From Lachnospiraceae bacterium (GTDB lineage Bacteria > Bacillota > Clostridia > Lachnospirales > Lachnospiraceae): a stretch of 41,199 bases of DNA. Shown here in pieces: positions 3,600 through 24,153 of the stretch. The DNA is taken from NCBI GenBank assembly GCA_024698715.1, contig JAILRA010000073.1, positions 1 through 41,199 of the forward strand, in the 5' to 3' direction. The position numbers and the translations under genes were made by a program. Each line of letters opens with the position of its first letter. Within the stretch, counting starts at the first letter, position 1. The notes under the pieces are model-generated. The model was not told where the DNA came from. It ran no database searches and saw only the letters and a list, made by a program, of their open reading frames with translations.

Positions 3600-3628
3600 T
3601 TGACAAAGAGGTTAGCGAGTGCTAACGT
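3600..3628 (+). promoter_or_regulatory. TetR1 promoter with GTTAG-N6-CTAAC operator (3611-3626)
   Basis: TTGACA (3600-3605), 17 bases, TAACGT (3623-3628). The palindrome GTTAGCGAGTGCTAAC fills the spacer and overlaps the -10. The same site, at the same offset of 11 bases from the -35, recurs at 8927 and 24136. Its position implies repression by blocking polymerase, and autoregulation of the TetR gene it precedes. Confidence 0.75.
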
Positions 3629-3675
3629 AATATATGACCAAAATATTAAAACGGTCACAAGAAAGGAAACGCTAT

Positions 3676-4272
3676 ATGCCGGACAGAGTTTTTACGAATG
3701 AACAGAGGGATGAATTAAGACTTGTGATGCTGGAAGCCGGATTCCCTTTGATAAAAGAATATGGTGTTACACATACAACAATCACTAAGATTACTGAGGC
3801 TGCAGGAATAGCTAAAGGAACATTCTATCATTTCTGGAAAAACAAAGAAGAATACCTTGCTGATTTAATTAAGTATCACAGGCAGAAGATGCTTCCCAAA
3901 CTGATTGACAAAGATGTTCTCGCAGGGAAAAGAAAACTTTGCAGAGAAGATGCTCGAGTTTATTTTCGTCATTTGGTAGATAAGGATATGAGCATCTACG
4001 CACATATGACTCTTGAAGATGAATCGAATCTTATCCACAAGACTTCGGATTTTGATCCTGATGAAGAAAAAGAGAGCTCTATAGCTATCAATTTATTAAG
4101 TATGTTGGAAGGCGTAAGACCTGATGTTGACTTTCTTCTTTTAGCGAACATGACCAAGATTCTTGTGCTGACAGCTGAAGCCAAGGAAGAACTTCATGAG
4201 AGCGTATATGAGAAGACAATAGATACAATCATTGACAGTATTCTTGATTTGATCTTCGAGAAAGGAAATTAA
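3676..4272 (+). CDS. TetR/AcrR family regulator 1
   Basis: The protein has 198 residues from ATG 3676, which has a proper RBS (AAAGGAAAC); the upstream in-frame ATG at 3634 lies within about 10 bases of the -10 and has no RBS. The N-terminal domain FPLIKEYGVTHTTITKITEAAGIAKGTFYHFWKNKEEY is a canonical TetR helix-turn-helix. The C-terminal domain (from about residue 60) has no recognisable ligand signature. It is in an operon with the BAAT-type hydrolase 5 bases downstream. Its own promoter carries one of five GTTAG-N6-CTAAC sites, so it is the leading candidate for the regulator of the whole set, although TetR2 and TetR3 are competitors. Confidence 0.85.
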   Translation: MPDRVFTNEQRDELRLVMLEAGFPLIKEYGVTHTTITKITEAAGIAKGTFYHFWKNKEEYLADLIKYHRQKMLPKLIDKDVLAGKRKLCREDARVYFRHLVDKDMSIYAHMTLEDESNLIHKTSDFDPDEEKESSIAINLLSMLEGVRPDVDFLLLANMTKILVLTAEAKEELHESVYEKTIDTIIDSILDLIFEKGN

Positions 4273-4277
4273 TCAAT

Positions 4278-5204
4278 ATGAAAAAATACAAAGAAACAGA
4301 AAAAGGATTCTACGGATGTTACTGGCCTTGCCCGGGCGGAGAATCACACGAAGCAATTATTGCGATGCTTGGAGATGACTGTGAAGATCATGTTGCAAAA
4401 TCAGGAGCGAAGTGGTTGCATAAGAAATTTGGAGTTAATGTAATGACACTTTCACCTGCTCATAAGGATTACAGTCATCATAATCTTCCGGTTGAAAGAA
4501 TAGGTGCTGCTATTGAATATCTTAAGAGTAAAGGGAATAAGAAATTCGGTATAGCCGGAGCTTCCACAACAGGCATGTATGCTTTAATTGCGGCATCATA
4601 TTATCCCGAGATAACGCTTACCATTGCAATGACACCGAGTGATTTCGTTATGGAAGGATTCTATCAGGGAAAACGTGATGGTATGAAAGAATGGCCCGGC
4701 GAGGGAGAATCAACCGCATCCTGGCAGGGTGAACCGCTTCCTTATCTTCCTTTTGTTTATCGTCATCCTGAATATTATCAGAAGATGAAAGCGGATGCAA
4801 AAGTTAACAAAGATATGCTTGTATCGAGAGGTGTATTCGATGATTCGGAAAAAGCACATCCAATAAGAGAAGAAGAGTTTATAAAAGTTGAAAGAATAAA
4901 AGGAAAACTTTTGCTTATAGGAGCAGAGGATGATGTTCTTTGGGATACTGCAAAGTATATAAGGCGAATGGAAGATAGATTGTCAAGAACTTCTCATGAG
5001 TGTGAAGTTGAGAGTATGATATATGAGCACGCTACACATTTTGTATTTCCGGAAAGCTTGCTTAAGCAGATGATGCCTGTTGGTGGAAGCATGTTCGTCG
5101 GATTATTCAAAGCAGGACGTGATTACAAAAAAGAATGCATGGAAGCTCGAATCGATATAGATAAGAGAATGAGTAAAGCGATAAATGATTGGATAAAGAT
5201 CTGA
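4278..5204 (+). CDS. Alpha/beta-hydrolase, acyl-CoA thioesterase/BAAT C-terminal type
   Basis: The protein has 308 residues. GIAGASTTGMYALIAASYYP (nucleophile Ser about residue 96) is followed by IAMTPSDFVMEGF; LLLIGAEDDVLWDT (acid around 218-223) and HATHFVFPE (His about 254) complete a catalytic triad in the order typical of the BAAT C-terminal family. There, GxSxG/GxCxG enzymes act on acyl-CoA or amide/ester substrates. The elbow here is GASTTG rather than a strict GxSxG. The gene begins 5 bases after TetR1 and is expected to share its repression. The real substrate is unknown. Confidence 0.7.
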   Translation: MKKYKETEKGFYGCYWPCPGGESHEAIIAMLGDDCEDHVAKSGAKWLHKKFGVNVMTLSPAHKDYSHHNLPVERIGAAIEYLKSKGNKKFGIAGASTTGMYALIAASYYPEITLTIAMTPSDFVMEGFYQGKRDGMKEWPGEGESTASWQGEPLPYLPFVYRHPEYYQKMKADAKVNKDMLVSRGVFDDSEKAHPIREEEFIKVERIKGKLLLIGAEDDVLWDTAKYIRRMEDRLSRTSHECEVESMIYEHATHFVFPESLLKQMMPVGGSMFVGLFKAGRDYKKECMEARIDIDKRMSKAINDWIKI

Positions 5205-5243
5205 AACTAAGTTTTTGCTCCCGGTGTCAAAATTGAGAGGTAA

Positions 5244-5957
5244 ATGATGAAAAGAGAAGAATTGAAAAAAATATTCAATATGATGCTCTGGGTAATTCCC
5301 GGAATGATTCTATGTATGATTGGCGATTATTGTATGGGAATTGAACCTAAGGACAGTACCGAGATATCAGGAATGATATCTACCGGATGGCTTACCATCG
5401 CAGATTGGAGAATTGCTGTTTCGAATATTGGTGGACTTATAGGTACGATATGCTATACACTTGCAGCACTTCCTTTTGTGAGATTCCTTCGTGTTAAACT
5501 TAATGAGAGCAAAAGCAGATGGGATAAAATCTGGATACATATGTATATTGCCGGATTGGTTCTTGGAGTAATGAGTTTCATGTATTTTCATCTTGAGTGC
5601 GGAACACTTATACATAATTACAATGTGATTTATGAAGCTGCGGAAGGCAATACAGATTTGGCTGTATCGATGTGGAACCGATCATATATGGTACAGGCCA
5701 TACCATATTGGACAACTTTCTTCGCATTTGAATCGGCAGTTTTTTTCAGTTGGATTGCATTAGTTATTAAAGGAACATTCAAACTTCCCAAAATATGGAT
5801 ACTTGGCTCGCCTATGATTATTGCAGGAATCGGGTTTCTTTTGGAACTTATTATTCCATGGAATTTCAACGGATTCTGTTCAGGATTCGAAAGCCTTGGC
5901 TGGATAGTCATGTTTATGGGAGGCAGGCAATTGGTTAAACAGGAAATTTTTTCATAA
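5244..5957 (+). CDS. Multi-pass membrane protein of unknown function
   Basis: The protein has 237 residues and about six hydrophobic segments: around residues 12-30, 55-80, 95-115, 150-175, 183-200 and 210-228. The pattern includes GDYCMG near the N-terminus and YFHLECGTLIHNYN in the middle. It resembles a Firmicutes family of uncharacterised membrane proteins (possibly DUF6796, not certain). It follows the hydrolase by 39 bases with a GAGAGG RBS and is probably the third gene of the TetR1 operon. No transport or catalytic motif is apparent. Confidence 0.6.
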   Translation: MMKREELKKIFNMMLWVIPGMILCMIGDYCMGIEPKDSTEISGMISTGWLTIADWRIAVSNIGGLIGTICYTLAALPFVRFLRVKLNESKSRWDKIWIHMYIAGLVLGVMSFMYFHLECGTLIHNYNVIYEAAEGNTDLAVSMWNRSYMVQAIPYWTTFFAFESAVFFSWIALVIKGTFKLPKIWILGSPMIIAGIGFLLELIIPWNFNGFCSGFESLGWIVMFMGGRQLVKQEIFS

Positions 5958-6001
5958 AGGGTCCGAATACAGAGGGACGTGTTTTGTGTGTCAAATCGAT
6001 G

Positions 6002-8915: not shown

Positions 8916-8944
8916 TTGACAAAATTGTTAGTTGGCGCTAACAT
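8916..8944 (+). promoter_or_regulatory. Methyltransferase 1 promoter with GTTAG-N6-CTAAC operator (8927-8942)
   Basis: TTGACA (8916-8921), 17 bases, TAACAT (8939-8944), with GTTAGTTGGCGCTAAC in the spacer. Architecture and offset match the TetR1 promoter at 3600. Confidence 0.75.
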
Positions 8945-8982: not shown

Positions 8983-9588
8983 ATGACAAAGAAAATCTGG
9001 GATTTGTATGCACCGTTATATGAAAAGTTTATGCGTACAGACGAAAAAGTTTATAAGCTTATGTATAAGCGAATTCCGAAGGTTGTTAAAGAGAAAAAGG
9101 TTCTCGAGATAGCGACAGGTCCCGGACTTTTGGCAAAGCATATAGCTTCTTCTGCAAAAGAAGTGATTGCAACTGATTACTCGGAAGGGATGATTAAGGA
9201 AGCGAGAAAGGGAGTACATCCTGATAATCTGAAATTTGAAGTTGCCGATGCTACGAATCTTCCTTATGGAGATAATACTTTTGATGTCGTAATAATCGCC
9301 AATGCATTGCATGTTATGCCCAATCCTGATAAAGCTTTGGAAGAAATAGACAGAGTACTTAAGAAAAAAGGCATACTTATTGCACCTAATTTCATTCACA
9401 AAGGTTCCGGCTTAAAGAGTAAAATCTGGTCAACGATTCTTAAGATGTCAGGTATTAAATTTGAACATCAATGGACTAAAACAGAGTATGAGCGTTTCCT
9501 GTCATCGCATGGCTGGAGAGTAGTCAACAGTAAGGAAATGCCCTCGAGAATTACGATGCTTTATACAGAAAATGTAAGGAAGAAATAA
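8983..9588 (+). CDS. Class I SAM-dependent methyltransferase 1 (UbiE-like)
   Basis: The protein has 201 residues. ATG 8983 is chosen because GGGG (8973-8977) is the only RBS-like sequence and upstream in-frame starts run into the operator. Motifs are KVLEIATGPGLLAKH (motif I), IATDYSEGMIKEA (motif II with acidic Asp), VADATNLPYGDNTFDVV and EEIDRVLKKKGILIAPNF. These are typical of methyltransferase_11/UbiE-like enzymes acting on small molecules, but they do not name the substrate. It shares its operator type with TetR1, both ABC pairs and the methyltransferase at 14166, which suggests one physiological response. Confidence 0.8.
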   Translation: MTKKIWDLYAPLYEKFMRTDEKVYKLMYKRIPKVVKEKKVLEIATGPGLLAKHIASSAKEVIATDYSEGMIKEARKGVHPDNLKFEVADATNLPYGDNTFDVVIIANALHVMPNPDKALEEIDRVLKKKGILIAPNFIHKGSGLKSKIWSTILKMSGIKFEHQWTKTEYERFLSSHGWRVVNSKEMPSRITMLYTENVRKK

Positions 9589-9624: not shown

Positions 9625-9663
9625 AATCTTTGATAGCGAACAATGATAACTATCAAGGATTAC
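9623..9663 (+). promoter_or_regulatory. 14-bp inverted repeat overlapping TetR2 -10 and start of transcript (probable operator)
   Basis: The arms GTAATCTTTGATAG (9623-9636) and CTATCAAGGATTAC (9650-9663) are complementary but for one position, around a 13-base centre. A T6 run follows, which imitates a terminator. The expected transcription start near 9631 would leave out half the left arm, so a DNA operator is the better reading. The left arm and centre contain AGCGAACAATG (9635-9645), also found at the TetR3 promoter. Confidence 0.55.
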
Positions 9664-9684: not shown

Positions 9685-10302
9685 ATGCCGAGAGATAAGT
9701 CATTAAGCCACATCAGAGTGAATAAAGCGATTATGGAGGAGTTCCTTGAGAAAGGATATGAAGCTGCCTCCATCAGAAGCATCGGTGCAAGAGCCGGCAT
9801 GACATCTGCAGGTCTTTACAGACATTATGCCGATAAAGAGGCGATGTTTGACGGCATGGTTAAGCCTCTTGTAGATGAGATGAAAAGCTGGCTTAAGAAT
9901 CATACAAGTAAAAAATATGATATTGTTGATGGCAATCTTTCAGGTGAAGAACTCTTTGGAGAATCATTTGTAGATCTTATAAGAAATGTGATTTTACCCA
10001 GAAGGCAGGAGTTTATTCTTTTGATGACTTGTTCTGCCGGAACCAGGTATGAGAATTTTATACATGATTTAACTAACGAGAATCAAAAAGAATTTCTGGA
10101 TGCATTAAAATATCTTAAGAAAAAGGGATATCCTGTTAAAACCGTGTCAGAAGAAGAACTTCATTTTCTTTTATCGGCTTATTTAACAGCGTGCTTCGAA
10201 CCTATCATTCACGATTATAATGAAAAGCAGATAGATAAATATCTGAATCTGATGCAGGAATTCTTCATGCCGGGGTGGTTACGAATTATGGGTATTGAAT
10301 AA
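9685..10302 (+). CDS. TetR/AcrR family regulator 2
   Basis: The protein has 205 residues starting MPRDKSLSHIRVNKAIMEEF. ATG 9685 has AAGGG eight bases upstream, and its MPRDKS start is identical to that of TetR3 (23463); ATG 9679 is too close to the RBS. The HTH is YEAASIRSIGARAGMTSAGLYRHYADKEAMF. Several C-terminal blocks match TetR3, including S-x-GTRYENF-x-H and EELH/KELH, so the two are paralogues. It sits just upstream of an ABC half-transporter pair and is separated from it by a terminator, so it has its own transcript. It is a likely regulator of the adjacent transporter. Confidence 0.85.
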   Translation: MPRDKSLSHIRVNKAIMEEFLEKGYEAASIRSIGARAGMTSAGLYRHYADKEAMFDGMVKPLVDEMKSWLKNHTSKKYDIVDGNLSGEELFGESFVDLIRNVILPRRQEFILLMTCSAGTRYENFIHDLTNENQKEFLDALKYLKKKGYPVKTVSEEELHFLLSAYLTACFEPIIHDYNEKQIDKYLNLMQEFFMPGWLRIMGIE

Positions 10303-10304
10303 AC

Positions 10305-10326
10305 AGAGCCTACGGGCTCTTTTTTA
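10305..10326 (+). terminator. Terminator after TetR2
   Basis: AGAGCC, loop TACG, GGCTCT, then a T run. It is short but GC-paired, directly after the stop codon. Confidence 0.7.
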
Positions 10327-10333: not shown

Positions 10334-10364
10334 AGTTATCGTTATCAAGTTAGCGATAACTAAC
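10334..10364 (+). promoter_or_regulatory. Operator cluster upstream of ABC pair 1 (GTTAG-N6-CTAAC at 10349-10364)
   Basis: GTTAGCGATAACTAAC (10349-10364) is the third copy of the shared site. It overlaps a second inverted repeat, AGTTATCG (10334-10341) with CGATAACT (10354-10361). The core promoter is weak (no TTGACA; TAACGA follows at the expected place). Two regulators may compete here. Confidence 0.6.
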
Positions 10365-10474: not shown

Positions 10475-12238
10475 TTGGGAAAGACTCAAAAATATGATCA
10501 TATGAAATTGATCAGACAATATGCGGGAGGACATAAACATTTGATAACACTTGGCAGATTCTTAGCTGCCATAAGTGCAGTTATGACATTGATACCGTAT
10601 TATATGATGTGGAAGATTATAAGGGTAGCGGTTAACGGCGAGAACCTTGGTTCAATAACAATTTATGCTATTGTTGCAGTAGCGCTGATAGTAGGAGCAT
10701 TGCTTGTATATATCGCTGCGCTTCTTTGCACTCATATTTCTGCCTTCAGAGTACAGGCTAATATGAGAAGTTCTCTTATGAGAAGAATAATCACATTACC
10801 TCTAGGTGTATTTGATGAAGACGGTACAGGCAAGATAAGAAGAATTGTTAATGATTCCACTGCGGCAACTGAAACGTATATTGCACATACACTTGCGGAT
10901 AAGACGGTTGCTGCCGTTACACCTGTAGGTCTTCTTATATTGGTATTTGCTTTTAACTGGAAGATAGGACTTATCTGTATGATACCGGCTGTTATCGGAT
11001 TCTGCTGCATGATGTCAATGATGGGAAAAAATATGCAGCAGAAGATGAAAGAGTATCAGGATGCACTCGAAACAATGAGTTCGGAAGCTACAGAATATGT
11101 TAGAGGTGTTCCTGTTGTTAAGACATTCGGCCAGACGGTCCATTCATTTAAGAGATTCAAGGATTGTATTGACGGATTCGGCAAATGGACGACGGAATAT
11201 ACATTAATGCTTAGATTCCCCATGATGGGATTCATGACATGTATTAATGCAATCTTTGTATTTTTAGTAATTGCATCATATATCTTTACAAGAAACGGAG
11301 TTGATAATGCAACTATTCTTAACATAATGTATTACATCATTATTACACCGCTGGTAACAGTTGCATTAACTAAGATTGCATATTCAGGTGAAGCTGAGAT
11401 GAATCTTATTGATGCATTAAAGAGAGTAGATAAGATTATGGAGATAGATCCTCTCGGAGAAGGATATAGCAATGAGAGACCTGTTGATTTTGGTGTAGAA
11501 GTAAAAAATGTATCTTATCGCTATAAGGGTGCAACGAGAAATGCGCTTGATAATGTATCGCTTTCTATTAAGCAGGGTGAGCATGTTGCGTTTGTCGGAC
11601 CTTCAGGTTCCGGTAAGACTACAATGGCAGAACTATTAGTCAGATTCTTTGATGTTACAGAAGGTGAGATAAGCATCGGTGGTGTTAACGTAAAAGATAT
11701 GCCTTCATCATATCTTATGGAACAGGTTTCATTTGTATTCCAGGATAGCCGCCTTATAAAAAAATCAATACTTGAAAATGTTCGCATGAGTAAGCCTGAT
11801 GCAAGTGAAGATGAAGTAATAGAAGCACTTAAAAAGGCGCAGTGCATGGATATATTAGAAAAACTGCCCAATGGTATACATACAGTTATAGGTGAAAAGG
11901 GAACATACCTTTCAGGTGGCGAGCAGCAGAGAATAACTATCGCCAGAGCGGTATTAAAAGATGCACCAATCCTTATACTTGATGAAGCAACAGCCTTTGC
12001 TGATCCTGACAACGAGACTAAGGTTCAGGCTGCTTTTGATGAGATGTCCAAGGATAAGACGCTTATCATGATCGCTCACAGACTGTCAACTGTTATGAAT
12101 GCAGATAAGATATTTGTTATGGATGACGGTAAATGCATAGAAGCAGGTAAGCATGATGAACTTATGCAGTCAGGCGGATTATATAAGCGTATGTTTGATG
12201 AATATTCAAAATCAATTGAGTGGAAGGTAGGTGCATAA
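10475..12238 (+). CDS. ABC half-transporter 1A (fused membrane and ATPase domains)
   Basis: The protein has 587 residues from TTG 10475, preceded by GGAGG at 10461-10465; ATG 10502 is an alternative. About six membrane segments (residues 20-320) precede an ATPase with Walker A GPSGSGKTT (around 375), signature LSGGEQQR, Walker B LILDEATAFADPDNE and H-loop IAHRLSTV. The D-loop region ATAFADP instead of ATSALD is, from memory, common among IrtAB/YbtPQ-type siderophore importers that use an exporter-like fold. It forms a heterodimer candidate with the gene 1 base downstream. Import of a metallophore or heme is inferred from this motif, the adjacent Feo/SUF genes and the ECF relic beside the paralogous pair. 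Drug or lipid export remains possible. Confidence 0.8.
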   Translation: MGKTQKYDHMKLIRQYAGGHKHLITLGRFLAAISAVMTLIPYYMMWKIIRVAVNGENLGSITIYAIVAVALIVGALLVYIAALLCTHISAFRVQANMRSSLMRRIITLPLGVFDEDGTGKIRRIVNDSTAATETYIAHTLADKTVAAVTPVGLLILVFAFNWKIGLICMIPAVIGFCCMMSMMGKNMQQKMKEYQDALETMSSEATEYVRGVPVVKTFGQTVHSFKRFKDCIDGFGKWTTEYTLMLRFPMMGFMTCINAIFVFLVIASYIFTRNGVDNATILNIMYYIIITPLVTVALTKIAYSGEAEMNLIDALKRVDKIMEIDPLGEGYSNERPVDFGVEVKNVSYRYKGATRNALDNVSLSIKQGEHVAFVGPSGSGKTTMAELLVRFFDVTEGEISIGGVNVKDMPSSYLMEQVSFVFQDSRLIKKSILENVRMSKPDASEDEVIEALKKAQCMDILEKLPNGIHTVIGEKGTYLSGGEQQRITIARAVLKDAPILILDEATAFADPDNETKVQAAFDEMSKDKTLIMIAHRLSTVMNADKIFVMDDGKCIEAGKHDELMQSGGLYKRMFDEYSKSIEWKVGA

Positions 12239-12239
12239 G

Positions 12240-14076: not shown

Positions 14077-14092
14077 GTTAGAGAACACTAAC
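14077..14092 (+). promoter_or_regulatory. GTTAG-N6-CTAAC operator upstream of methyltransferase 2
   Basis: GTTAGAGAACACTAAC, the fourth copy of the shared palindrome. It lies 73 bases upstream of ATG 14166 and close to weak promoter candidates (TTGACC 14051; TATAGA 14100). Confidence 0.6.
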
Positions 14093-14165: not shown

Positions 14166-14789
14166 ATGGGCTTGTATAAGAATTTTGTAAGCCAGACAAG
14201 AAAGCCGGAGGGCACGCTTGGAAAAATGATGGTAAACGGAATGAATGGAGGTCATGCAAAAATGGCAGACTGGGGAATATCCCATCTGGAAATCGTTAAC
14301 CCTTCTGAACTTCTGGAAATAGGATGCGGAGGCGGAAGAAACGCAGGAGAGCTTATGAAAAAATATCCGTCGGCGTATATGACTGCAGTGGATTATTCTG
14401 AAGTTTCCGTTGAAAAGGCAACATCTGTTAATCAGGCGGCGATTGATAACGGAAGATGCGAAATAAGACAAGCGGATGTTTCGTCTTTGGATCTGCCGGA
14501 TGAAAAGTACGATTTGGCAACAGCTTTTGAAACAATTTATTTTTGGCCGGGACTTGAAAAATGTTTTACGGAGGTCGCAAGAGTTCTCAAGAAGGGCGGC
14601 TCTTTTATGATTGTCAACGAATCAGATGGAACGGATGATGCCAGTCTGAAATTTGAGAAGATTATTGATGGCATGAAATGTTATACGATTGAGAATATCG
14701 AGTTTGCTCTTTATTCTTCAGGATTTTCAGATGTTAAATCTTTTCATCACGAATCAAAACCCTGGATTACCGTAATAGCAACCAAATAG
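14166..14789 (+). CDS. Class I SAM-dependent methyltransferase 2
   Basis: The protein has 207 residues with a strong RBS (GGAGG). Motifs are LLEIGCGGGRNAGELMKKY (motif I), MTAVDYSEVSVEKA, ADVSSLDLPDEKYDLATAFETIYFWP and VLKKGGSFMIVNESDG, a standard methyltransferase_11/25 profile for small-molecule substrates. Its N-terminus differs from methyltransferase 1, so the two are not close duplicates. It follows ABC pair 1 and has its own copy of the shared operator. A role in modifying the transported compound is possible but unproven. Confidence 0.8.
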   Translation: MGLYKNFVSQTRKPEGTLGKMMVNGMNGGHAKMADWGISHLEIVNPSELLEIGCGGGRNAGELMKKYPSAYMTAVDYSEVSVEKATSVNQAAIDNGRCEIRQADVSSLDLPDEKYDLATAFETIYFWPGLEKCFTEVARVLKKGGSFMIVNESDGTDDASLKFEKIIDGMKCYTIENIEFALYSSGFSDVKSFHHESKPWITVIATK

Positions 14790-14836: not shown

Positions 14837-15388
14837 ATGCTAAAAAAGTCGATAGTTGAATTCTGTTCACCTACGCTTGCTGGAATAAAGACCGGCAGCA
14901 TCTTTTCTGTAAAGAAAAACAGAAAAGAAATAACAGACGAGATAAGAAATCTAAACGAAAAACTGGTTGATAAGGGAATCAGAATAATTCCAATCGAAAA
15001 GAGCGAAAAAAATACTCTTATATATGTTTACAGACCGGAAAGATTGAAAAAAGATCTTTGCAAACCGGAGGCCTCATGCATTCTAAAGGAAAAAGGTTAC
15101 ATATCGGAAAACTGCGATTTGTGTTTGATGAAATTAATTAAACGCTTGAAGAATGATTCTGATTTCCCTCATGAAATAGGATTGTTTTTGGGATATCCTC
15201 CATCCGATGTGAAATGTTTTATGAAAAGTCCCTGCGAGGGCGTTAATTGTATCGGATGCTGGAAAGCTTATGGCAATTGTGAAGAGGCAAAAAAGACTTT
15301 TGCGCAATTTCAAAAATGCAAAGAAGCTTATTGTAAAGCAATCGATCAGGGGATTGAATTCGAATCACTTGTTGTTAAAACAGGATGA
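14837..15388 (+). CDS. DUF3793 family protein
   Basis: The protein has 183 residues with a CGGAG RBS. Typical family features are the opening FCSPTLAGIKTGSIFSV, a central LIYVYRPERL and the conserved HEIGLFLGYPPSDVKCF. About ten cysteines are present, including CDLC, CEGVNCIGCW and a C-terminal CKEAYC, which could bind metal or an Fe-S cluster. The family is commonly found near FeoB and flavodoxin genes in Clostridia, as here, and has no established biochemical role. It is the first gene of the apparent feo operon. Confidence 0.75.
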   Translation: MLKKSIVEFCSPTLAGIKTGSIFSVKKNRKEITDEIRNLNEKLVDKGIRIIPIEKSEKNTLIYVYRPERLKKDLCKPEASCILKEKGYISENCDLCLMKLIKRLKNDSDFPHEIGLFLGYPPSDVKCFMKSPCEGVNCIGCWKAYGNCEEAKKTFAQFQKCKEAYCKAIDQGIEFESLVVKTG

Positions 15389-15399: not shown

Positions 15400-15777
15400 A
15401 TGCGCGGAACAATCATCGTTTTAATAGTGTTGGCTGTTGTTATAGCTTTGGCAATCGTGGGGATGGTTAAAAGGATCAAATACGGTTCAAGCTGCTGCGG
15501 GGAAAAAGATGCTGCTCCTTCGAAAATAAGAGTCAAAGACAGAAACAAGAGTCATTACCCTTATGTTTATTATCTGGATGTAGATGGAATGCACTGCAGC
15601 GGATGCGTTCGGAAGATTGAAAACGAATTCAATTCGAAAGACGGAATGTGGGCAAAGGCAAGCCTTGAGAAAAAGCAGGTAAAACTCTTATCAAAGTTTT
15701 CGCTGGATAAAAGCATGGCTTCGGGAATCGTTTCCGATGCGGGATTTACGATGCTTTCATTTGAAATATCAAAATAG
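15400..15777 (+). CDS. Membrane-anchored heavy-metal-associated (HMA) domain protein
   Basis: The protein has 125 residues. An N-terminal membrane helix (about residues 4-22) is followed by a basic turn and SSCCGE, resembling FeoB-associated Cys-rich membrane proteins. A C-terminal HMA fold follows (from about residue 52) with the metal site GMHCSGC, C-x-x-C at about residues 67-70. HMA domains bind Cu(I), Zn or similar soft metals. Fusion of an FeoB-associated Cys-rich anchor to an HMA domain upstream of feoA is not a common arrangement. It starts 11 bases after DUF3793 and ends 20 bases before feoA. Confidence 0.7.
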   Translation: MRGTIIVLIVLAVVIALAIVGMVKRIKYGSSCCGEKDAAPSKIRVKDRNKSHYPYVYYLDVDGMHCSGCVRKIENEFNSKDGMWAKASLEKKQVKLLSKFSLDKSMASGIVSDAGFTMLSFEISK

Positions 15778-15797: not shown

Positions 15798-16025
15798 ATG
15801 AGTAAACTGACAGACATGCAAAAAGGAGCTGAAGGCACGGTTGTGTCGGTAAGCGGAGATGCCAGATTTGTAAGCCGTATTACATCGATTGGACTTACAC
15901 CGGGATGCAAGGTATCCATGATTAAGAATGAAAAGAACAGACCTATTCTTGTTTATTCAAGAGACACGATGATTGCGCTTAACAGAAAAGACTGTTCGAA
16001 CATAGAAATGGAGGTAACAGCATAA
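15798..16025 (+). CDS. feoA: FeoA, ferrous iron transport accessory protein
   Basis: The protein has 75 residues with RBS AGGAGG. It shows the SH3-like FeoA pattern: LTDMQKGAEGTVVSVSGDARFVSRITSIGLTPGCKVSMI, then PILVYSRDTMIALNR. FeoA is a small cytosolic partner that modulates FeoB. The stop overlaps the FeoB start by one base (TAATG), indicating translational coupling. Confidence 0.92.
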   Translation: MSKLTDMQKGAEGTVVSVSGDARFVSRITSIGLTPGCKVSMIKNEKNRPILVYSRDTMIALNRKDCSNIEMEVTA

Positions 16026-18049
16026 TGACCGCGGATAATGAATATGTAATAGCATTGCTTGGACAGCCAAACTCGGGTAAGTCCACGCTTTTTAATGCAT
16101 TAACGGGAATGCATCAGCATGTGGGCAACTGGCCCGGCAAGACGGTTGAGAAAAAAGAAGGGTCTTTCAAACGTGAGGATAAAAAATATATTGTAGCAGA
16201 TCTTCCCGGAACATACAGTTTGTCTGCAAACTCCGACGAAGAGATGATTACAAGGGATTATATAGCATCGGGAAAGGCAGATGTGGTATGTATTTTAGCC
16301 GACAGTTCACAACTTAGCAGAAGCCTCTATATGCTTGCGGATTATGCGGGAATAACGGTTCCCTGTTTCCTGCTTCTCAATATGAGCGATGTCGCTGCTC
16401 TTCAGGGAAAAACAATTGATGCAAAAGCGCTTGAAAAGAAACTCGGTATTCCGGTTGTTCCTTTTTCTGCACCAGACAGGAAATCTTATGACGGATTTTA
16501 TACCGCATTAAACAGGGCTTTGATTAAACAATCCAAATTGGATTATACGGTTTTGGAAGAAAAATATGCAAATATAGAAGGATTTAACGAATTAAAGAAT
16601 ATTATTCCCGAAGGAGTTATTTCGGGTTATTCGAAAACATGGCTTGCAATCAAGGCAATAGAAGGAGATGTTCCTGTTATTGCAAAGATAAAAGAAAAAC
16701 TCTCTGCTGAAAATGTTAAGACTTTGGAAAAAATAATTGTAAGCATCAAGAATGGTGTTGTTGTCGCAGGAGAAAGCAAATTCGCATGGATCGATGAATT
16801 GCTTGAAGGAAGTGTGAAATCCGAAAAGAAATCAGCGTCTTTAGGAAAATTCGACAGATTGGTTACGCATAAAATCTGGGGTAAAATAGTTGTAATTGCC
16901 ATTATATTCGGAGGACTTTTACTTTCATTCATACCCGCTTTGCCGTTCATGGGAATCGGACAGGGTATTTCGGCCATACCCGATCCCTTATCAGATATCC
17001 TGATAGGAATAGGATGTCCGAAAATCATAGTATCGCTGTTCTGCGATATTTTCATCAGATGTATATCATTTGTAGTTCAGATGCTCGGATTTGTATTTGG
17101 AGTAACATTGGTATTCGGGTTACTCGAAGAGATAGGTCTTATGGCGAGAGTATCATATGTATTTGATAATTCCATGAGTAAATTCGGTCTTCAGGGCAAG
17201 AGTGTAATGCCTTTCCTTATTAGTTTCGGATGTACGATGGGTGGTGCAGCCGGGACCAGAGTAATCGATAACTGGGGACAGAAGGTTTTGACTATCGCAC
17301 TTTCGTGGGCAATTCCCTGTGGAGCTGCATGGGCAGTAATTCCTTTGTTATCCACTATCTTTTTCGGAGCATGGGCGCCTGTAATCATATTGGCAATATT
17401 AATTGTTATGATACTTCATATTTGTGTGACGGGATTTATTTTCGGACGTTTCCTTGTTAAACCTGAAGAGAGATACGGAATGATTATGGAACTTCCTCCG
17501 TATCATAAACCCAGATGGGGCGCTCTTCTTCGTTATGTATTCGGTAGAACAAAAGATACATTTTTAAGAGCAACAAAAGTAGTGCTGCTTGTAGCATTTG
17601 TATTTTGGCTTTTATCATTCACGAAGGACGGAAATATTGCTAACAGCCTTCTTTATAAATTCGGTCATTTTGTAGAGCCTGCAACGAAATTGGTTGGTAT
17701 GAGCTGGCAGTCCTTCCTTGCATTCCTTGCTTCATCATTAGGAAAGGAAGGGGCACTTGGTGTACTCAGTATGCTGTATACCAATTCCGGAACTTTAACT
17801 TTAGGTTCACTTATGGCTGCAGAGAAAGCAAGTAACTTTAATGAGTTAATGCTAGCAAACATTTCAAGACCTGAAGGCCTTGCTTTGATATTCGCAATGA
17901 CATTCAACATGCCATGTATCGTAGCACTTGCTGCAACATATCAGGAGACTCACTCAGCAAAATGGACTGCAATTATCGGTGTATATTACACTGTAGTAGC
18001 CCTTCTGTTGGCTGGTGCAGCTTACTATATTGGATTATTAATCTTCTAA
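16025..18049 (+). CDS. feoB: FeoB, ferrous iron transporter
   Basis: The protein has 674 residues, within the family range. The N-terminal G domain has G1 GQPNSGKST (residues 13-21), switch region HVGNWPGKTVEKKEG, G3 DLPGTYSL and G4 NMSD. Two Gate-type membrane halves follow (SFGCTMGGAAGTRVIDNWG in the middle; SSLGKEGALGVLSMLY and FNMPCIVALAATYQE near the end). It imports Fe(II) across the cytoplasmic membrane. FeoA upstream and a FeoC-like gene downstream complete a feoABC arrangement. Confidence 0.95.
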   Translation: MTADNEYVIALLGQPNSGKSTLFNALTGMHQHVGNWPGKTVEKKEGSFKREDKKYIVADLPGTYSLSANSDEEMITRDYIASGKADVVCILADSSQLSRSLYMLADYAGITVPCFLLLNMSDVAALQGKTIDAKALEKKLGIPVVPFSAPDRKSYDGFYTALNRALIKQSKLDYTVLEEKYANIEGFNELKNIIPEGVISGYSKTWLAIKAIEGDVPVIAKIKEKLSAENVKTLEKIIVSIKNGVVVAGESKFAWIDELLEGSVKSEKKSASLGKFDRLVTHKIWGKIVVIAIIFGGLLLSFIPALPFMGIGQGISAIPDPLSDILIGIGCPKIIVSLFCDIFIRCISFVVQMLGFVFGVTLVFGLLEEIGLMARVSYVFDNSMSKFGLQGKSVMPFLISFGCTMGGAAGTRVIDNWGQKVLTIALSWAIPCGAAWAVIPLLSTIFFGAWAPVIILAILIVMILHICVTGFIFGRFLVKPEERYGMIMELPPYHKPRWGALLRYVFGRTKDTFLRATKVVLLVAFVFWLLSFTKDGNIANSLLYKFGHFVEPATKLVGMSWQSFLAFLASSLGKEGALGVLSMLYTNSGTLTLGSLMAAEKASNFNELMLANISRPEGLALIFAMTFNMPCIVALAATYQETHSAKWTAIIGVYYTVVALLLAGAAYYIGLLIF

Positions 18050-18477: not shown

Positions 18478-18535
18478 AACAATAAAACCTATTTAAACAA
18501 TAGGCGGATAGGCGTTAAACGAAAGGAGTTAATTG

Positions 18536-19279
18536 ATGTCATCTATTTTGGAATTAAAGAACCTGCATGTATCAGTCGGCGAGAAAGAAATACTTAAAGG
18601 TATTGATCTTGAAATAAAAGCAGGTGAAACACACGTATTGATGGGACCTAACGGTGCCGGAAAGTCAACGCTCGGACATGCGATAATGAATGACCCCAGG
18701 TATGAGATTACCGAAGGTAAATTATTTTTTGAGGGCGAAAACATTACTGAAGAAGATACGGATAAAAGAGCGAAAAGAGGGATTTTTTTAACTTTTCAGG
18801 ATCCCGTGCCCGTACCGGGTATTTCATTGGGCAGCTTTACAAGAAGTGCTTTGGAACAGGGCGGAGAGAAACACATTAAACTCTGGGATTTTGCAAAAAA
18901 GTGCAAAGAGGTATGCGGATTGCTTAATATGGACAAGTCTTACATAGACAGAGATTTAAATGTTGGATTCTCCGGTGGCGAGAAAAAGAAAGCGGAAATA
19001 TTCCAGTTACTTATGCTTAATCCAAAACTTGCCATCCTGGATGAAACAGATTCCGGCCTTGATGTTGATGCGGTAAAAACGGTGTCAAAGGGAGTGGAAG
19101 AGTATCAGAAAAATGGCGGCACATTATTGATTATTACGCACAGTACAAGAATTCTTGATAACCTGAATGTTGACAAGACTCATATTCTTATTGACGGTAA
19201 GATCGTAGAGAGCGGCTCGTCGTGTTTGATTGCCAAGATCAATCAGAACGGATTTGAGGAATATTGTAAAGAAGAATAA
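18536..19279 (+). CDS. sufC: SufC, Fe-S cluster assembly ATPase
   Basis: The protein has 247 residues from ATG 18536 (GGAG seven bases upstream). ABC ATPase motifs are GPNGAGKST (Walker A), FSGGEKKKAEIFQLL (the SufC-specific signature) and AILDETDSGLDVDA (Walker B with D-loop). There is no membrane domain. SufC powers the SufBCD scaffold in Fe-S cluster assembly. It is the first gene of sufCBDSU, with SufB 14 bases downstream. Confidence 0.93.
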   Translation: MSSILELKNLHVSVGEKEILKGIDLEIKAGETHVLMGPNGAGKSTLGHAIMNDPRYEITEGKLFFEGENITEEDTDKRAKRGIFLTFQDPVPVPGISLGSFTRSALEQGGEKHIKLWDFAKKCKEVCGLLNMDKSYIDRDLNVGFSGGEKKKAEIFQLLMLNPKLAILDETDSGLDVDAVKTVSKGVEEYQKNGGTLLIITHSTRILDNLNVDKTHILIDGKIVESGSSCLIAKINQNGFEEYCKEE

Positions 19280-19293
19280 GAAATGGGAAAAAT

Positions 19294-20703
19294 ATGAAAG
19301 AGAAAACTTATATAGAAGATATAGACGAGAGCATTTATGACTTTCGTTTTAAAGAAGATGAAGAAGATGTTCTCGGACGCGGTATTGGGTCCGATCTTAT
19401 AGATGAAATCTCTAAAGAAAAGGGCGATCCGGAATGGATGAGGCAGTTCAGACAAAGATCGTTGGAAATATTTCACAAAACCCATATGCCCAATTGGGGC
19501 CCTTCTATAGAAAGCCTTGATATGGACAGAATCATTACCTATATTCGTCCGAAGGCTCGAATGAAAAATAAGTGGGAAGATGTTCCTGAAGATGTAAAGC
19601 AGACTTTTGAAAGACTGGGAATTCCGCAGGCAGAAAGAGAGTCGTTATCCGGCGTAGGCGCACAATATGATTCTGAGATCGTTTATCACAATCTTCGTGC
19701 TGAAGTCGAAAAACAGGGTGTTGTATATACAGACCTGGAAACTGCGATGAGGGATGAAAAGTATTCGGAAATGATAAAGAAACATTTCATGAAACTCATT
19801 CCGCCGACAGATCACAAATTTGCGGCGTTGCATGGTGCGGTATGGTCAGGAGGTTCATTTGTGTATGTTCCGGAAGGAGTTAAAGTTGAGATTCCGCTCC
19901 AGTCATATTTCAGACTCAATGCGGAAAGTGCAGGACAGTTCGAACACACACTTATCATTATCGGGAAGAATTCATATCTTCATTTTATTGAAGGATGTTC
20001 GGCTCCGAAATATTATGCAGCAAGTCTGCATGCAGGATGTGTGGAGCTATATGTCGGTGAAAATGCCACACTCAGATATTCGACAATAGAGAACTGGTCC
20101 AAGAATATGTACAACTTAAACTCGAAGAGAGCTTTGGTAGAAAAAGCCGGGAAAATAGAATGGATTTCGGGATCTTTCGGATCGCATATATCTTACCTTT
20201 ATCCTACCAGTGTCTTAAACGGAGAAGGGTCTTCAAGCGAGTTTACAGGAATAACATTCTCCGGAAACGGTCAGGATTTGGATACGGGAGCAAAAGTTAT
20301 TCACAATGCACCCAACACAACATCTTATATGAATACGAGATCGATCTCGAAAAGCGGAGGCGTCAATACATTCAGAAGCGAAGTAATTGTAAAGCCACAG
20401 GCGAAAGGAAGCAAATCATCTGTATCATGTGCATCGCTTATGTTAGATTCGATATCCAGATCAGATACAATCCCTGTAATGGATATAAGGACCAAGGATG
20501 CAGATATCGGACATGAAGCAAAAATCGGAAGAATAAGTGATGAAGCGGTCTTTTATCTTATGACGAGAGGACTGTCCGAAGAAGAGGCCAAGGCGCTTAT
20601 CGTAAGCGGTTTCTGCGAGAATGTTTCCAAAGAACTGCCGGTCGAGTACGCAGTGGAGATGAACAACCTCATACGTATGGAGATGGTTGGAAGCATCGGT
20701 TAA
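19294..20703 (+). CDS. sufB: SufB, Fe-S cluster scaffold subunit
   Basis: The protein has 469 residues, the usual SufB size. It contains the SufB core HFIEGCSAPKYYAASLHAGCVELYV, then AGKIEWISGSFGSH and MDIRTKDADIGHEAKIGRISDEAVFYLMTRGLSEEEA. The conserved cysteine and C-terminal Glu/His residues serve cluster assembly at the SufB-SufD interface. It lies between sufC and sufD. Confidence 0.94.
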   Translation: MKEKTYIEDIDESIYDFRFKEDEEDVLGRGIGSDLIDEISKEKGDPEWMRQFRQRSLEIFHKTHMPNWGPSIESLDMDRIITYIRPKARMKNKWEDVPEDVKQTFERLGIPQAERESLSGVGAQYDSEIVYHNLRAEVEKQGVVYTDLETAMRDEKYSEMIKKHFMKLIPPTDHKFAALHGAVWSGGSFVYVPEGVKVEIPLQSYFRLNAESAGQFEHTLIIIGKNSYLHFIEGCSAPKYYAASLHAGCVELYVGENATLRYSTIENWSKNMYNLNSKRALVEKAGKIEWISGSFGSHISYLYPTSVLNGEGSSSEFTGITFSGNGQDLDTGAKVIHNAPNTTSYMNTRSISKSGGVNTFRSEVIVKPQAKGSKSSVSCASLMLDSISRSDTIPVMDIRTKDADIGHEAKIGRISDEAVFYLMTRGLSEEEAKALIVSGFCENVSKELPVEYAVEMNNLIRMEMVGSIG

Positions 20704-20731
20704 TTGATCAGTTTAGAACGGAAAGAAGATT

Positions 20732-21679
20732 ATGAGTGAAAACAAAACTATCAGAATAAACAATCTGCCGGTTCCTACGTGGAACCACTTAAAGATAAAC
20801 GATGCCGAATATGAAACAATGGCATCAAAGGAAGAACTCTTTGACCAATTAAAGAAGATAGCAGTCAAGCCGGAGAATCAACTTCCGGTAGTGCATGATG
20901 AAGTGATCGAAGAAGCGACCGAAGGTTTGGATTTTGAATTTACGATAAACACCGATTCAACGATTATATTAAGATTATTGAATAAATGCGAAGAAAAATC
21001 GGATGATTCTAAAAAAGATATTATCGTTAAGATCAACGCAAACATAAAAGAAGGATTAACACTGAATTTATCGATAGTCAATTTGACAAAAGGAGCGAGA
21101 ATATACGTCACATCAGATGCACTTTGCAATGAAAACAGCGCACTTCGCATGACTACGATTTCTTTGGGATCATCCAAAGCGTATTTTGAAGGAAAAGCTG
21201 AACTCAAAGGAGATAATTCAATGTTTGATTCGTATACCGCATATATTTTAAACAGCGGTCAGTTCCTGGATATGAATTATGTAGCAGATCATAAAGGAAA
21301 GAATACGGAAGCTGAGATTGTATCATCCGGAGTACTCAACAAAGGTACGGAAAAAGTATCCAGACAGACGGTTAATTTTATATCCGGATGTGCGGGCTCA
21401 AAGGGAGCGGAAAGCGAAGAGGTTCTTTTGCTCGACGATGATGTGATAAGCAAATCTGCGCCGCTGATTCTTTGCACCGAAGAAGATGTCGAAGGTGAAC
21501 ACGGTGCTTCAATCGGACAGCCGGATATCGATGTAATTTTTTACCTGAAATCAAGGGGAATCGCCATCGAAAAAATATATGAGATGTTAAGCTTCGCAAA
21601 GATCGAGGCTGCACTTTCAAGAATAGATCATGAAGAAACATCTGAAATGGTCAGAAACTATCTCGGTATAAATAATTAA
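20732..21679 (+). CDS. sufD: SufD-type Fe-S cluster assembly protein
   Basis: The protein has 315 residues, shorter than the roughly 420 of E. coli SufD but common in Clostridia. The N-terminal part (NLPVPTWNHLKIND) is a typical SufD opening. The C-terminal part has DVISKSAPLILCTEEDVEGEHGASIGQPDIDVIFYLKSRGI, including the conserved His of the SufB-SufD interface. The beta-helical middle is reduced. It is encoded between sufB and sufS. Confidence 0.88.
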   Translation: MSENKTIRINNLPVPTWNHLKINDAEYETMASKEELFDQLKKIAVKPENQLPVVHDEVIEEATEGLDFEFTINTDSTIILRLLNKCEEKSDDSKKDIIVKINANIKEGLTLNLSIVNLTKGARIYVTSDALCNENSALRMTTISLGSSKAYFEGKAELKGDNSMFDSYTAYILNSGQFLDMNYVADHKGKNTEAEIVSSGVLNKGTEKVSRQTVNFISGCAGSKGAESEEVLLLDDDVISKSAPLILCTEEDVEGEHGASIGQPDIDVIFYLKSRGIAIEKIYEMLSFAKIEAALSRIDHEETSEMVRNYLGINN

Positions 21680-21691
21680 AAGGATTTTCAA

Positions 21692-22900
21692 ATGAATATT
21701 AAAGAAATACGGGCACAATTTCCGCTCATAAATAATCAGAATATCGTTTATCTTGATAACGCAGCTACTACGCAAAAACCACATTGTGTAATAGATGCGT
21801 TCTCTGAATTTTATTGCAATTTCAATGCAAATCCCATGAGAGGTATATATGACTTAAGTGTTGCTGCTACGGATGCTTATGAAAATGTCAGAGAGCAGAC
21901 CGCAGGCTTTGTTAATGCTAAAGATCCTTCGGAGATAATATTCACAAGAAATGCTACGGAAAGTTTGAATCTGACAGCTAATATTTTGTCGGGAACGTTG
22001 AAAGAAGGCGATGAAATACTGGTAGCAACGAGTGAACACCACAGCAATTTTCTTCCATGGAAAAGAATCGCAGATAATAAAAGACTGAAAATAAAATATC
22101 TTGATTGTGATTCTGAAGGTGAATATTCTGTTGAATCTTTAAAAGAAGCTTTATCAGAGGGAACCAAAGTATTTGCTATAGCAACTGTTTCAAATGTTAT
22201 AGGAAGGGTGAACCCAATCAGAGAGTTTGCAAAGATATGTCACGCAAACAATACTCTGATCTGTGTGGATGCAACGCAAAGTGTAGCACATATGAAAACG
22301 AATGTCATAGAAGATGATGTTGACTTCCTGGCGTTTTCAGCTCATAAAATGTATGGCCCTATGGGTGTGGGAATTCTTTACGGGAAGAAAGAACTGTTGG
22401 AAAAACTGCCGCCTTTTTTGGAGGGTGGAGAAATGATAGAGTATGTTTCTAAAGAGAAAACCATTTACGCAGATCTTCCTCAAAAATACGAAGCGGGAAC
22501 GGTAAATGCCGCAGATGTGTATGCTTTCGGTAAAGCAATGGAATATGTTAAAAAGATTGGGTTTGAAGAGATTGGTGAAAGAGAAAGACTGCTTACCGGT
22601 TATCTTTTTGACGGAATGAAAAATACCGATAATATCCGAATTATCGGTGCGAAAGATTCGGCTGAACATAATTGTATAGTTTCATTCGCGGTCGATGATG
22701 TACATCCGCATGATGTTGCATCGATATTTGCTGATTCGGGTATATGTATAAGAGCAGGACATCACTGTGCGCAGCCACTTCATATTCTGCTTGGCATACC
22801 TTCAACAGTAAGGGCGAGTCTGGCATTTTATAACACTAAAGAAGAGATAGATTTCTTCATCAAAGTATTATCTGAAATAAGGTCACGAATGGGATACTGA
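21692..22900 (+). CDS. sufS: SufS, cysteine desulfurase
   Basis: The protein has 402 residues, a fold-type I PLP enzyme of class II (SufS) type. Visible are VYLDNAATTQKP near the start, TSEHHSNFLPW, the PLP lysine in DFLAFSAHKMYGPMGVGILYG and the persulfide cysteine in RAGHHCAQPLH near residue 357. It supplies sulfur as a persulfide that SufU receives. It lies 12 bases after sufD. Confidence 0.94.
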   Translation: MNIKEIRAQFPLINNQNIVYLDNAATTQKPHCVIDAFSEFYCNFNANPMRGIYDLSVAATDAYENVREQTAGFVNAKDPSEIIFTRNATESLNLTANILSGTLKEGDEILVATSEHHSNFLPWKRIADNKRLKIKYLDCDSEGEYSVESLKEALSEGTKVFAIATVSNVIGRVNPIREFAKICHANNTLICVDATQSVAHMKTNVIEDDVDFLAFSAHKMYGPMGVGILYGKKELLEKLPPFLEGGEMIEYVSKEKTIYADLPQKYEAGTVNAADVYAFGKAMEYVKKIGFEEIGERERLLTGYLFDGMKNTDNIRIIGAKDSAEHNCIVSFAVDDVHPHDVASIFADSGICIRAGHHCAQPLHILLGIPSTVRASLAFYNTKEEIDFFIKVLSEIRSRMGY

Positions 22901-22943
22901 GAAAGAATGATATGAGGAAAACACGAAAGGGTTAAAGGAGAGA

Positions 22944-23372
22944 ATGGATAAACGAACGTTTTACAATGAAGTATTAATAGAACATAACAAGTATCCGACA
23001 CATAAACATGCTATGCCGGGATGCTGTTATTCAAAAGAAGGTATTAATCCAAGCTGCGGGGATGATCTAATAATCAATCTTGATATTAAAGACGGAATCA
23101 TACAGGGCGGTTCTTTTGAAGGAGACGGCTGTGCGATATCGCAGGCTTCAGCGGATATAATGTTCGATCTTTTAACAGGCAGAAGTGTTGCAGAGGCAAA
23201 GGAATTGTCCGCTATTTTTTCGAGAATGATTAAAGAAAAGATAACAGATGAGGAACTTGAAAGGCTCGAAGAAGCGGGAGCACTTATGGATATTTCTCAT
23301 ATGCCGGCCAGAGCAAAATGTGCCATGCTTGCCTGGCGAACACTTGATGAAATTTTATTGCAAAAAATATAA
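22944..23372 (+). CDS. sufU: SufU, zinc-dependent sulfur transfer protein
   Basis: The protein has 142 residues and is IscU-like. Cysteine positions are PSCGDDLIINL, FEGDGCAISQASADIM and MPARAKCAMLAWRTL, the three-Cys plus Asp zinc site of SufU. The RAKC-x-x-L-x-W ending is diagnostic. It takes sulfur from SufS for the SufBCD scaffold. It is the last gene of the operon; the TetR3 promoter starts 8 bases after its stop, with no terminator between them. Confidence 0.93.
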   Translation: MDKRTFYNEVLIEHNKYPTHKHAMPGCCYSKEGINPSCGDDLIINLDIKDGIIQGGSFEGDGCAISQASADIMFDLLTGRSVAEAKELSAIFSRMIKEKITDEELERLEEAGALMDISHMPARAKCAMLAWRTLDEILLQKI

Positions 23373-23379
23373 AAAATGT

Positions 23380-23438
23380 TTGACAATTATAAGCGAACAA
23401 TGTATTCTAATAAAGGTTTTGAGAGTACAGTGTTCGCT
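23380..23438 (+). promoter_or_regulatory. TetR3 promoter with split inverted repeat, near twin of suf promoter
   Basis: TTGACA (23380-23385), 17 bases, TATTCT (23403-23408). AGCGAACAATGT (23392-23403) is mirrored by ACAGTGTTCGCT (23427-23438) with one mismatch and about 35 bp between centres. Spacer, -10 and half-sites closely match 18384-18440. Confidence 0.7.
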
Positions 23439-23462
23439 TTGGCTTTTGAAAGGGGAATATAA

Positions 23463-24083
23463 ATGCCGAGAGACAAATCTGAAAATCATGAAAAGATAAT
23501 AAATGCTGCATATAAAGAATTCATGGAGTATGGCTTTAACGATGCTTCCATGAGAAGAATCGCAGCGGAATGCGATATGAGCGCGTCCGGTCTTTACAAA
23601 CATTTTCCGAGTAAAGAAGAAATGTTCGCCGCATTGGTCGAACCTGCATATTCCGGATTGAAAGAAATGTATTACCAAAAACTTTCGGTTCAGTACGAAG
23701 AACTCGAGAATCAATCTGCGGAAGAAATCTGGGAAGGTGAAGATGAAACCGTTTGGGTCATTAAATATATTTATGACAATTTCAACGCTTTCAAACTTCT
23801 TATCTGCAGATCTCAGGGAACAAGATATGAGAATTTTACTCATGAACTTGCAACGCTTGAAGAGCAATCAACATTAGATTATTTAAAGAAGATTAAAGAT
23901 AAAGGAATTGAAATCAATAAAATATCCAAGAAGGAATTACACCTTTTTGTGACTTCGAATATAAATGCAATATTTGAAACGGTTATCCATGATTTTTCCA
24001 GAAAAGATGCTTTGATCTATGCCAAACATTTCGATGACTATTGCATCGGCGGCTGGAAAAGACTTCTGGGATTACCGGAATAA
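23463..24083 (+). CDS. TetR/AcrR family regulator 3
   Basis: The protein has 206 residues beginning MPRDKSENHEKI, with RBS AAAGGGG. The HTH is FNDASMRRIAAECDMSASGLYKHFPSKEEMF. It is paralogous to TetR2: same start, the shared S-x-GTRYENF-T/I-H block, and similar C-terminal helices ending in GW-(K/L)R-(L/I). It precedes ABC pair 2 just as TetR2 precedes ABC pair 1. Its promoter matches that of the suf operon, so its level probably follows the same Fe-S or iron signal. Confidence 0.87.
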   Translation: MPRDKSENHEKIINAAYKEFMEYGFNDASMRRIAAECDMSASGLYKHFPSKEEMFAALVEPAYSGLKEMYYQKLSVQYEELENQSAEEIWEGEDETVWVIKYIYDNFNAFKLLICRSQGTRYENFTHELATLEEQSTLDYLKKIKDKGIEINKISKKELHLFVTSNINAIFETVIHDFSRKDALIYAKHFDDYCIGGWKRLLGLPE

Positions 24084-24101
24084 GAAAAAGAAAAATAAAG
24101 C

Positions 24102-24126
24102 GCAACCGATTGGTTGCATTTTATTT
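24102..24126 (+). terminator. Terminator after TetR3
   Basis: GCAACC, loop GATT, GGTTGC, then ATTTTATTT. It sits between TetR3 and the promoter of ABC pair 2. Confidence 0.65.
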
Positions 24127-24153
24127 GGTATATAAGTTAGACAAAACTAACCA
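24125..24153 (+). promoter_or_regulatory. ABC pair 2 promoter with GTTAG-N6-CTAAC operator (24136-24151)
   Basis: TTGGTA (24125-24130), 17 bases, TAACCA (24148-24153), with GTTAGACAAAACTAAC in the spacer. The operator starts 11 bases from the -35, as at 3600 and 8916. Confidence 0.65.

Follow-up and report, generated by a model that had tools for sequence, protein, structure and literature searches.

GTTAG-N6-CTAAC as a probable iron box of a short DtxR/IdeR-type regulator in a Lachnospiraceae genome

Introduction

We have analysed a 41,199 nucleotide stretch of DNA from a Lachnospiraceae bacterium (assembly GCA_024698715.1, contig JAILRA010000073.1, positions 1 to 41,199 of the forward strand), referred to here as the window, in which the palindrome GTTAG-N6-CTAAC recurs in front of regulatory, methyltransferase, transporter and iron-related genes. 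Features lie on the plus strand unless stated otherwise. The first copy (box 1, 3611..3626) is in the promoter of TetR1 (3676..4272), a TetR family gene (PF00440), and the second (box 2, 8927..8942) precedes the gene for class I methyltransferase A (8983..9588; PF08241). Box 3 (10349..10364) is upstream of a pair of genes for ABC half-transporters, 1a (10475..12238) and 1b (12231..13973), and box 5 (24136..24151) lies 19 bp before a second pair, 2a (24171..25925) and 2b (25862..27664). Between these pairs, box 4 (14077..14092) heads a run of genes that encodes class I methyltransferase B (14166..14789; PF08241), a DUF3793 protein (14837..15388; PF12672, E 8.8e-56), a FeoB-associated Cys-rich protein with an HMA-like stretch (15400..15777; PF12669 marginally above and PF00403 marginally below the cut-off), a FeoA-like small open reading frame (ORF; 15798..16025), which by eye resembles the ORF before feoB in locus L044, and the ferrous iron transporter FeoB (16025..18049; PF02421, PF07664). 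The Fe-S cluster assembly genes sufC-B-D-S-U follow (18533..23372; PF00005, PF01458, PF00266, PF01592; sufD assigned by eye and position), and we infer that they belong to the operon of box 4. Feo, Suf and flavodoxin genes serve to supply or to spare iron.

How Lachnospiraceae and their kin control iron appears to be little described in the literature that we searched, in which we found no paper describing the box in Lachnospiraceae, most subscription journals being outside that search. An initial annotation of the window had placed TetR1, the two methyltransferases and the two ABC pairs in one regulon, with TetR1, or else TetR2 or TetR3, as the common regulator. We hypothesise that GTTAG-N6-CTAAC is the iron box recognised by a short metalloregulator of the DtxR/IdeR type that lacks an SH3 domain, most likely a 120 amino acid protein encoded elsewhere in the same genome, and that this protein represses iron-supply genes; we give this reading a probability of about 0.87.

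Results

No exact match other than the five boxes occurs in the window, and 100 dinucleotide shuffles of the window gave a mean of 0.04 exact sites and a maximum of 1. When up to two mismatches were allowed there was no excess in the window (8 sites against 11.4 expected), and the signal is thus confined to exact or nearly exact copies, a further box with one mismatch being found at position 14035. All five boxes are intergenic given the likely gene starts, which are themselves inferred: for methyltransferase A the ATG at 8983 was taken and not the mechanical TTG at 8932, and for TetR1 the ATG at 3676, near the onset of protein conservation with three orthologs. The initial annotation was therefore correct on the five sites and on their intergenic position upstream of genes. 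It had also placed a -35 element exactly 11 bases upstream of three of them, and this holds at 3611 and 8927, where the sequence is TTGACA, and is not clear at 24136, where it is TTGGTA.

A scan of the whole genome of origin (G000; 2.93 Mb, 89% complete), which the initial annotation had proposed as a check, gave 17 exact sites, their spacers varying, against 3 for a control motif made by reading the same pattern backwards, and so the motif is above background; chance alone would give about three sites per genome. Outside the window, one site precedes an ABC pair on contig C5, and another, on contig C62, an ABC pair that adjoins an AraC-like gene and is followed at some distance by a ZnuA-like lipoprotein gene (the C62 labels are by eye). 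Two sites head a flavodoxin gene, and a second feoA-feoB is also headed by a box. Further sites lie before a DUF454 gene, before an ECF-type cluster with another ABC pair, before a DUF6110 gene plus a heavy-metal P-type (P1B) ATPase, and before a third methyltransferase, labelled by eye. The remaining sites precede enolase, gpmI and gmd, the last identified by eye. We conclude that the 17 sites form a genome-wide and largely iron-themed regulon, so that the earlier claim of one shared operator class, with TetR1, the methyltransferases and the ABC pairs in one regulon, has been borne out and its membership extended.

At the level of the promoter, box 1 is found between a TTGACA -35 and a TAACGT -10, and box 2 between a TTGACA -35 and a TAACAT -10; these are the only two of the 17 sites with TTGACA 11 bases upstream. 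By eye, three kinds of position can be told apart: in the promoter spacer, as at these two sites, around the -35, or immediately after the -10. Of the 17 sites, 7 are accompanied within 120 bp by another box that has one mismatch or none, the flavodoxin pair being counted for each other; among random 256-bp stretches the figure was 70 of 2000. The box is kept in three orthologous TetR1 promoters in which its spacer has changed. Box 3 is kept in all four aligned genomes; in this region (window 10320-10365) the spacer GTTAGYGATAACTAAC is nearly invariant in the four, and a YTATC-N14-GATAA repeat overlaps the box, where a second factor, which might be TetR2, perhaps binds.

Among 25 genomes of the same genus there were 150 sites against 32 for the control motif. 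At the level of the order, three genomes of other families (G025, G031, G040) have sites at feoA, feoB, flavodoxin and a gene that we take to be DUF2325-like, as well as in the gap separating feoA from a divergent DtxR gene. The feoB promoter was examined over 900 bp upstream at 30 loci, a feoB match being present in 37 genomes; the locus taken in G014 and G018 was not the box-bearing one, and contig ends truncated those of G017 and G023. A strict box was found upstream of feoB in 15 of the 30 and inside feoB in none; with one mismatch allowed, the numbers were 21 upstream and one inside. Two to four such boxes were present upstream at 20 of the 21 loci. At one locus, L224 (G011), a one-mismatch box 58 bp before feoB, GTTAGGTTAGGCTAAT, approaches the classical IdeR box for two dimers.

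We also scanned a public genome collection for TTGACA-N5-box, which gave at least 117 loci. Genes within 1.2 kb downstream were labelled by their best BLAST hits to our own reference set, some ABC labels being at about 30% identity, and the control consisted of positions shifted 2.5 kb upstream (n = 79; 38 of the 117 were dropped, as the shifted point was too near the locus end). All counts refer to the 117 loci among the matches listed. A feoA or feoB gene was downstream in 41, against 1/79 controls; in a subset of 80 loci the figure was 27, against 0/60. DUF3793, flavodoxin or DUF2325 followed in 12 (a DUF3793-type gene in 1/79 controls), ABC or ECF parts in 9, ZIP or P1B genes in 3 (1/79 controls), DtxR in 1 and another labelled gene in 4. 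In the rest of the controls, one had a methyltransferase and 75/79 had no labelled gene. Two of the matches, L085 (Magasanikbacteria) and L105 (Shapirobacteria), have the -35 plus box near a small helix-turn-helix gene in Patescibacteria, and perhaps reflect unrelated use of the same palindrome. Separately, at L038 (G018; 1800-2605), a NifH-like gene, identified by eye, and further genes lie behind a box adjoining a feo-DtxR locus.

These distributions bear directly on which protein might bind the box. A role for TetR1 as an autoregulated protein that occupies all five palindromes and governs a single small-molecule pathway would fit the box in its own promoter and its retention in three orthologs, the 8 to 18 boxes in each of the four genomes that carry TetR1, and the 6/117 public loci at which a TetR gene alone is downstream. 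However, orthologs of TetR1 (84-90% identical) are present in only 3 of 40 relatives, whereas 18 of the 21 genus genomes that lack it carry the motif (96 sites against 26 for the control), and feoAB is headed by boxes in genomes of other families. Moreover, the TetR1 leader has a palindrome of its own, TGACC-N13-GGTCA (3635..3657), the arms of which are kept in 4/4 aligned genomes and which is the sole exact copy in the genome; it is the likely TetR1 operator. A different palindrome, GATAG-N13-CTATC (9632..9654), with arms kept in 4/4 aligned genomes, lies over the promoter of TetR2 (9685..10302; PF00440) and is the likely TetR2 operator. With separate conserved palindromes at TetR1 and TetR2, the TetR proteins most likely have their own operators. 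TetR3 (23463..24083; PF00440) is a paralog of TetR2 at 36% identity, and GCGAACAATG is common to the promoter regions of the two (window 9636-9645 and 23393-23402), perhaps as a common half operator. TetR1 as master regulator was rejected on the phylogenetic distribution and the separate TetR footprints, and we consider its control of the five boxes very improbable. The common regulator named by the initial annotation, whether TetR1, TetR2 or TetR3, is likewise not supported by the 17 sites genome-wide or by the short DtxR/IdeR-type identity of box-adjacent regulators elsewhere.

A candidate of that type is encoded in the genome of origin. It is a protein of 120 amino acids (contig C62, about 65845-66207, minus strand; L036:1846-2208), in which Fe_dep_repress (PF01325, 45.8 bits) and Fe_dep_repr_C (PF02742, 54.3 bits) are both over the cut-off. 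Its best solved matches are DtxR (2.5e-14) and IdeR (1.4e-13), with MntR behind (2e-8 at best). The metal ligands of DtxR, which we take to be numbered Met10, Cys102, Glu105 and His106, have counterparts in the candidate, with Met at the position of Met10 and a C-x-x-E-H aligned with DtxR 102-106; Cys-type relatives have Met, Asn or Asp at the Met10 position. The recognition helix has S-K-P-S. There is no C-terminal SH3 domain in the candidate, the match covering only DtxR residues up to about 116. In a set of 39 DtxR-family genes from the genome of origin and its relatives (G037 and weak hits left out, the G007 gene incomplete), 7 have their start no more than 350 bp from a strict box. The same distance from a strict box holds for DtxR genes in 12 of the 117 public loci, which gives 13 proteins, 11 of them Cys-type. 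Several box-adjacent DtxR genes are divergent from feoA/feoB. In a DtxR protein tree, drawn without three box-adjacent proteins from public loci, the box-adjacent genes are not one clade (11 changes) and are scattered in the short DtxR family.

It could also be that another metalloregulator binds the box, either Fur or an MntR-like DtxR paralog of the feo operon. The paralog sits in a feoA-feoB gene run behind a box, and Fur is over the cut-off in 24 of 41 genomes. However, no Fur hit is over the cut-off in the genome of origin, at 89% completeness, on which ground Fur was rejected, and none is in G010, G015 and G005, which have 11, 7 and 8 boxes. The MntR-like paralog was rejected as well: in the set of DtxR genes examined it is confined to G000 and G008, its metal site is degenerate, without the C-x-x-E-H, and its best solved match is MntR. 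We therefore regard either protein as an unlikely reader of the box.

The two ABC pairs were compared with transporters of solved structure. Two-unit eukaryotic transporters outscore the half-size matches, partly because their two halves add up. Among half-size solved matches, 1a has IrtA as its best (320.7 bits) and is IrtA/YbtP-like, and 1b, which is YbtQ-like, has 6p6i_B (264.4 bits) followed by 8vsi_B, named YbtQ (263.7). For 2a, which is YbtP/IrtA-like, the best is 6p6i_A, which we take to be YbtP (286.1 bits), ahead of IrtA (275.3), and for 2b it is again 6p6i_A (271.8), level with Sav1866 (271.6). On these similarities we consider import of siderophores a likelier function for the pairs than export of drugs.

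Some neighbouring features of the window may be noted. An alpha/beta hydrolase gene (BAAT_C; 4278..5204; PF08840) follows TetR1. A sensor histidine kinase that seems to carry receiver domains is split over three overlapping ORFs on the minus strand (6002-8752), so that it is frame-broken or carries assembly errors. In G022 and G010 a gene like the membrane-protein gene at 5244-5957 is followed directly by TetR2, without the kinase and without methyltransferase A. Upstream of box 4 there is a hairpin, GGCGGTTAA-N11-TTGACCGCC (14031..14059), which embeds the one-mismatch box (14035-14050). It is part of a leader module (window 14000-14060) in which a TGTGATATAAA-like stretch is followed by the hairpin, GGCGGTTAA-N6-CTAAC-(0-1)-TTRACYGCC, with the one-mismatch box inside. 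Copies were found in the window, at L238 and L240 in the genome of origin, at L237 (G023) and at L239 (G005), standing before methyltransferase genes or EcfT. In 5/5 copies found in 41 genomes a strict box lies 46-48 bp downstream of the hairpin start. The module is possibly a duplicated or mobile promoter.

Discussion

Our best reading of these sequences is a DtxR/EqbA-type iron regulon with YbtPQ/IrtAB-like importers. In this mechanism the Fe2+-loaded repressor would bind each box as one dimer and, where the box lies over the promoter spacer or just downstream of the -10, would block transcription. As iron falls the repressor would leave, and feoAB, flavodoxin and the YbtPQ/IrtAB-like importers would be expressed, together with the linked methyltransferase, hydrolase and TetR genes. 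TetR1, TetR2 and probably TetR3 would then be local regulators with their own operators, nested under iron control. The placement of the boxes and the second boxes fit repression by occlusion, with iron as the probable corepressor by analogy with EqbA and IdeR. The initial annotation had argued that genes under one operator should all act on the same small molecule; with shared iron control there is no need for this, and the argument falls away.

Several observations weigh against an iron box read by the candidate. The candidate gene has no box within 1.5 kb in its own genome, so that its assignment rests on family relatives, and 32 of the 39 DtxR-family genes are not box-adjacent. G022 has 8 boxes and no PF01325 hit, in a genome 84% complete. 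The sites before enolase, gpmI and gmd fit an iron regulon poorly, as do those before HPr and a cation antiporter in G040. To the six public loci with a TetR gene alone may be added 41/117 in which no downstream gene received a label, 7 of them lying at a contig end. G003 and G020 have DtxR and no strict box, their feoAB promoters having GTTAG-N6-ATAAC, which we read as drift of one arm. The change from CTAAC to ATAAC is seen in two or three copies upstream of feoAB in G003, G005, G007, G013 and G020, and in a genome-wide count on both strands over five genomes GTTAG-N6-ATAAC shows only a modest excess (24 against 13 for the control). In G003, G005, G013 and G020 DtxR has recognition helices that match those in G010 and G015, which keep the box. 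Finally, 16 genomes from other families of the order gave 39 sites against 27 for the control, and 117 further genomes of the class gave 309 against 261, hardly above it. Enrichment across the class was rejected on this count, the excess being only in some lineages (12 of the 117 genomes have at least 8 sites, against 2 for the control), and the box is thus a feature of some lineages and not of the class. The class-wide figure is also what would be expected if the sites had arisen by chance or formed a passive family of repeats with no part in regulation, but the 0.04 sites expected in the window, the TetR1 promoter spacer that varies while the arms stay, and a gene content far from random make this explanation scarcely credible.

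If the iron reading is correct, the box and a named candidate repressor would make the iron regulon readable from genome sequence, and DUF3793, DUF6110, DUF454 and several ABC, ECF and methyltransferase cassettes would be marked as likely iron-starvation genes. A more speculative extension, which we hold only tentatively, is that the importer cassettes, with their methyltransferases and hydrolases and their TetR or AraC gates, act under the global one-dimer DtxR box as AND gates, opened by low iron together with a particular foreign siderophore sensed by the local regulator. Lachnospiraceae might in this way keep a menu of stolen siderophores.

Comparison with known systems

The box can be compared with that of IdeR/DtxR of Actinobacteria. 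In the passages of PMC8464063 that bear on it, the IdeR consensus TTAGGTTAGSCTAACCTAA accommodates two dimers, and a single dimer binds the 14-bp half site TTAGGNNNNCCTAA. TTAG-N6-CTAA in our box has this one-dimer register, and the systems also have in common related DNA-binding and dimerisation domains and iron uptake targets (PMC8464063). They differ in that the candidate lacks the SH3 domain and in that the inner G/C of TTAGGNNNNCCTAA is dispensable here, whereas the outer G/C is kept. No exact 19-bp two-dimer IdeR box was found in the 241 loci fetched, which, with the varying spacers of the 17 sites, indicates a variant and not the classical IdeR box. In Clostridium, ideR is among the C. 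beijerinckii transcripts of PMC11497831, the passages at hand giving no box.

The ABC pairs resemble the YbtPQ/IrtAB importers, which have an exporter fold, in that IrtA, YbtP or YbtQ is the best half-size solved match for all four halves (for 2b in a tie). They differ in that no siderophore synthesis genes were noticed in the window, where no search aimed at them was made.

The closest parallel is EqbA of ICESe2 in Streptococcus equi, which the available passages of PMC3672683 describe as a short DtxR-like repressor without an SH3 domain and with the DtxR-type Cys. According to these passages, binding requires a 36 bp palindrome in the eqbB promoter with the core GTTAGATGTATCTAAC, is enhanced by Fe2+ and Zn2+ and less by Mn2+, and deletion of eqbA raises eqbE 13-fold; its authors call the operator unlike other iron boxes (PMC3672683). 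EqbA differs, as far as this account goes, in having a single operon, on a mobile element, as its described target, whereas here there is a many-gene set in a genome; in a palindrome that extends beyond the core; and in having Asn where the candidate has Met, the two proteins being set side by side by description. Its locus also encodes a YbtPQ-like ABC pair, EqbKL (PMC3672683), and the operator core GTTAGATGTATCTAAC, as given there, is exactly GTTAG-N6-CTAAC, which suggests that many genomes share a box of which the EqbA operator is the half-site form.

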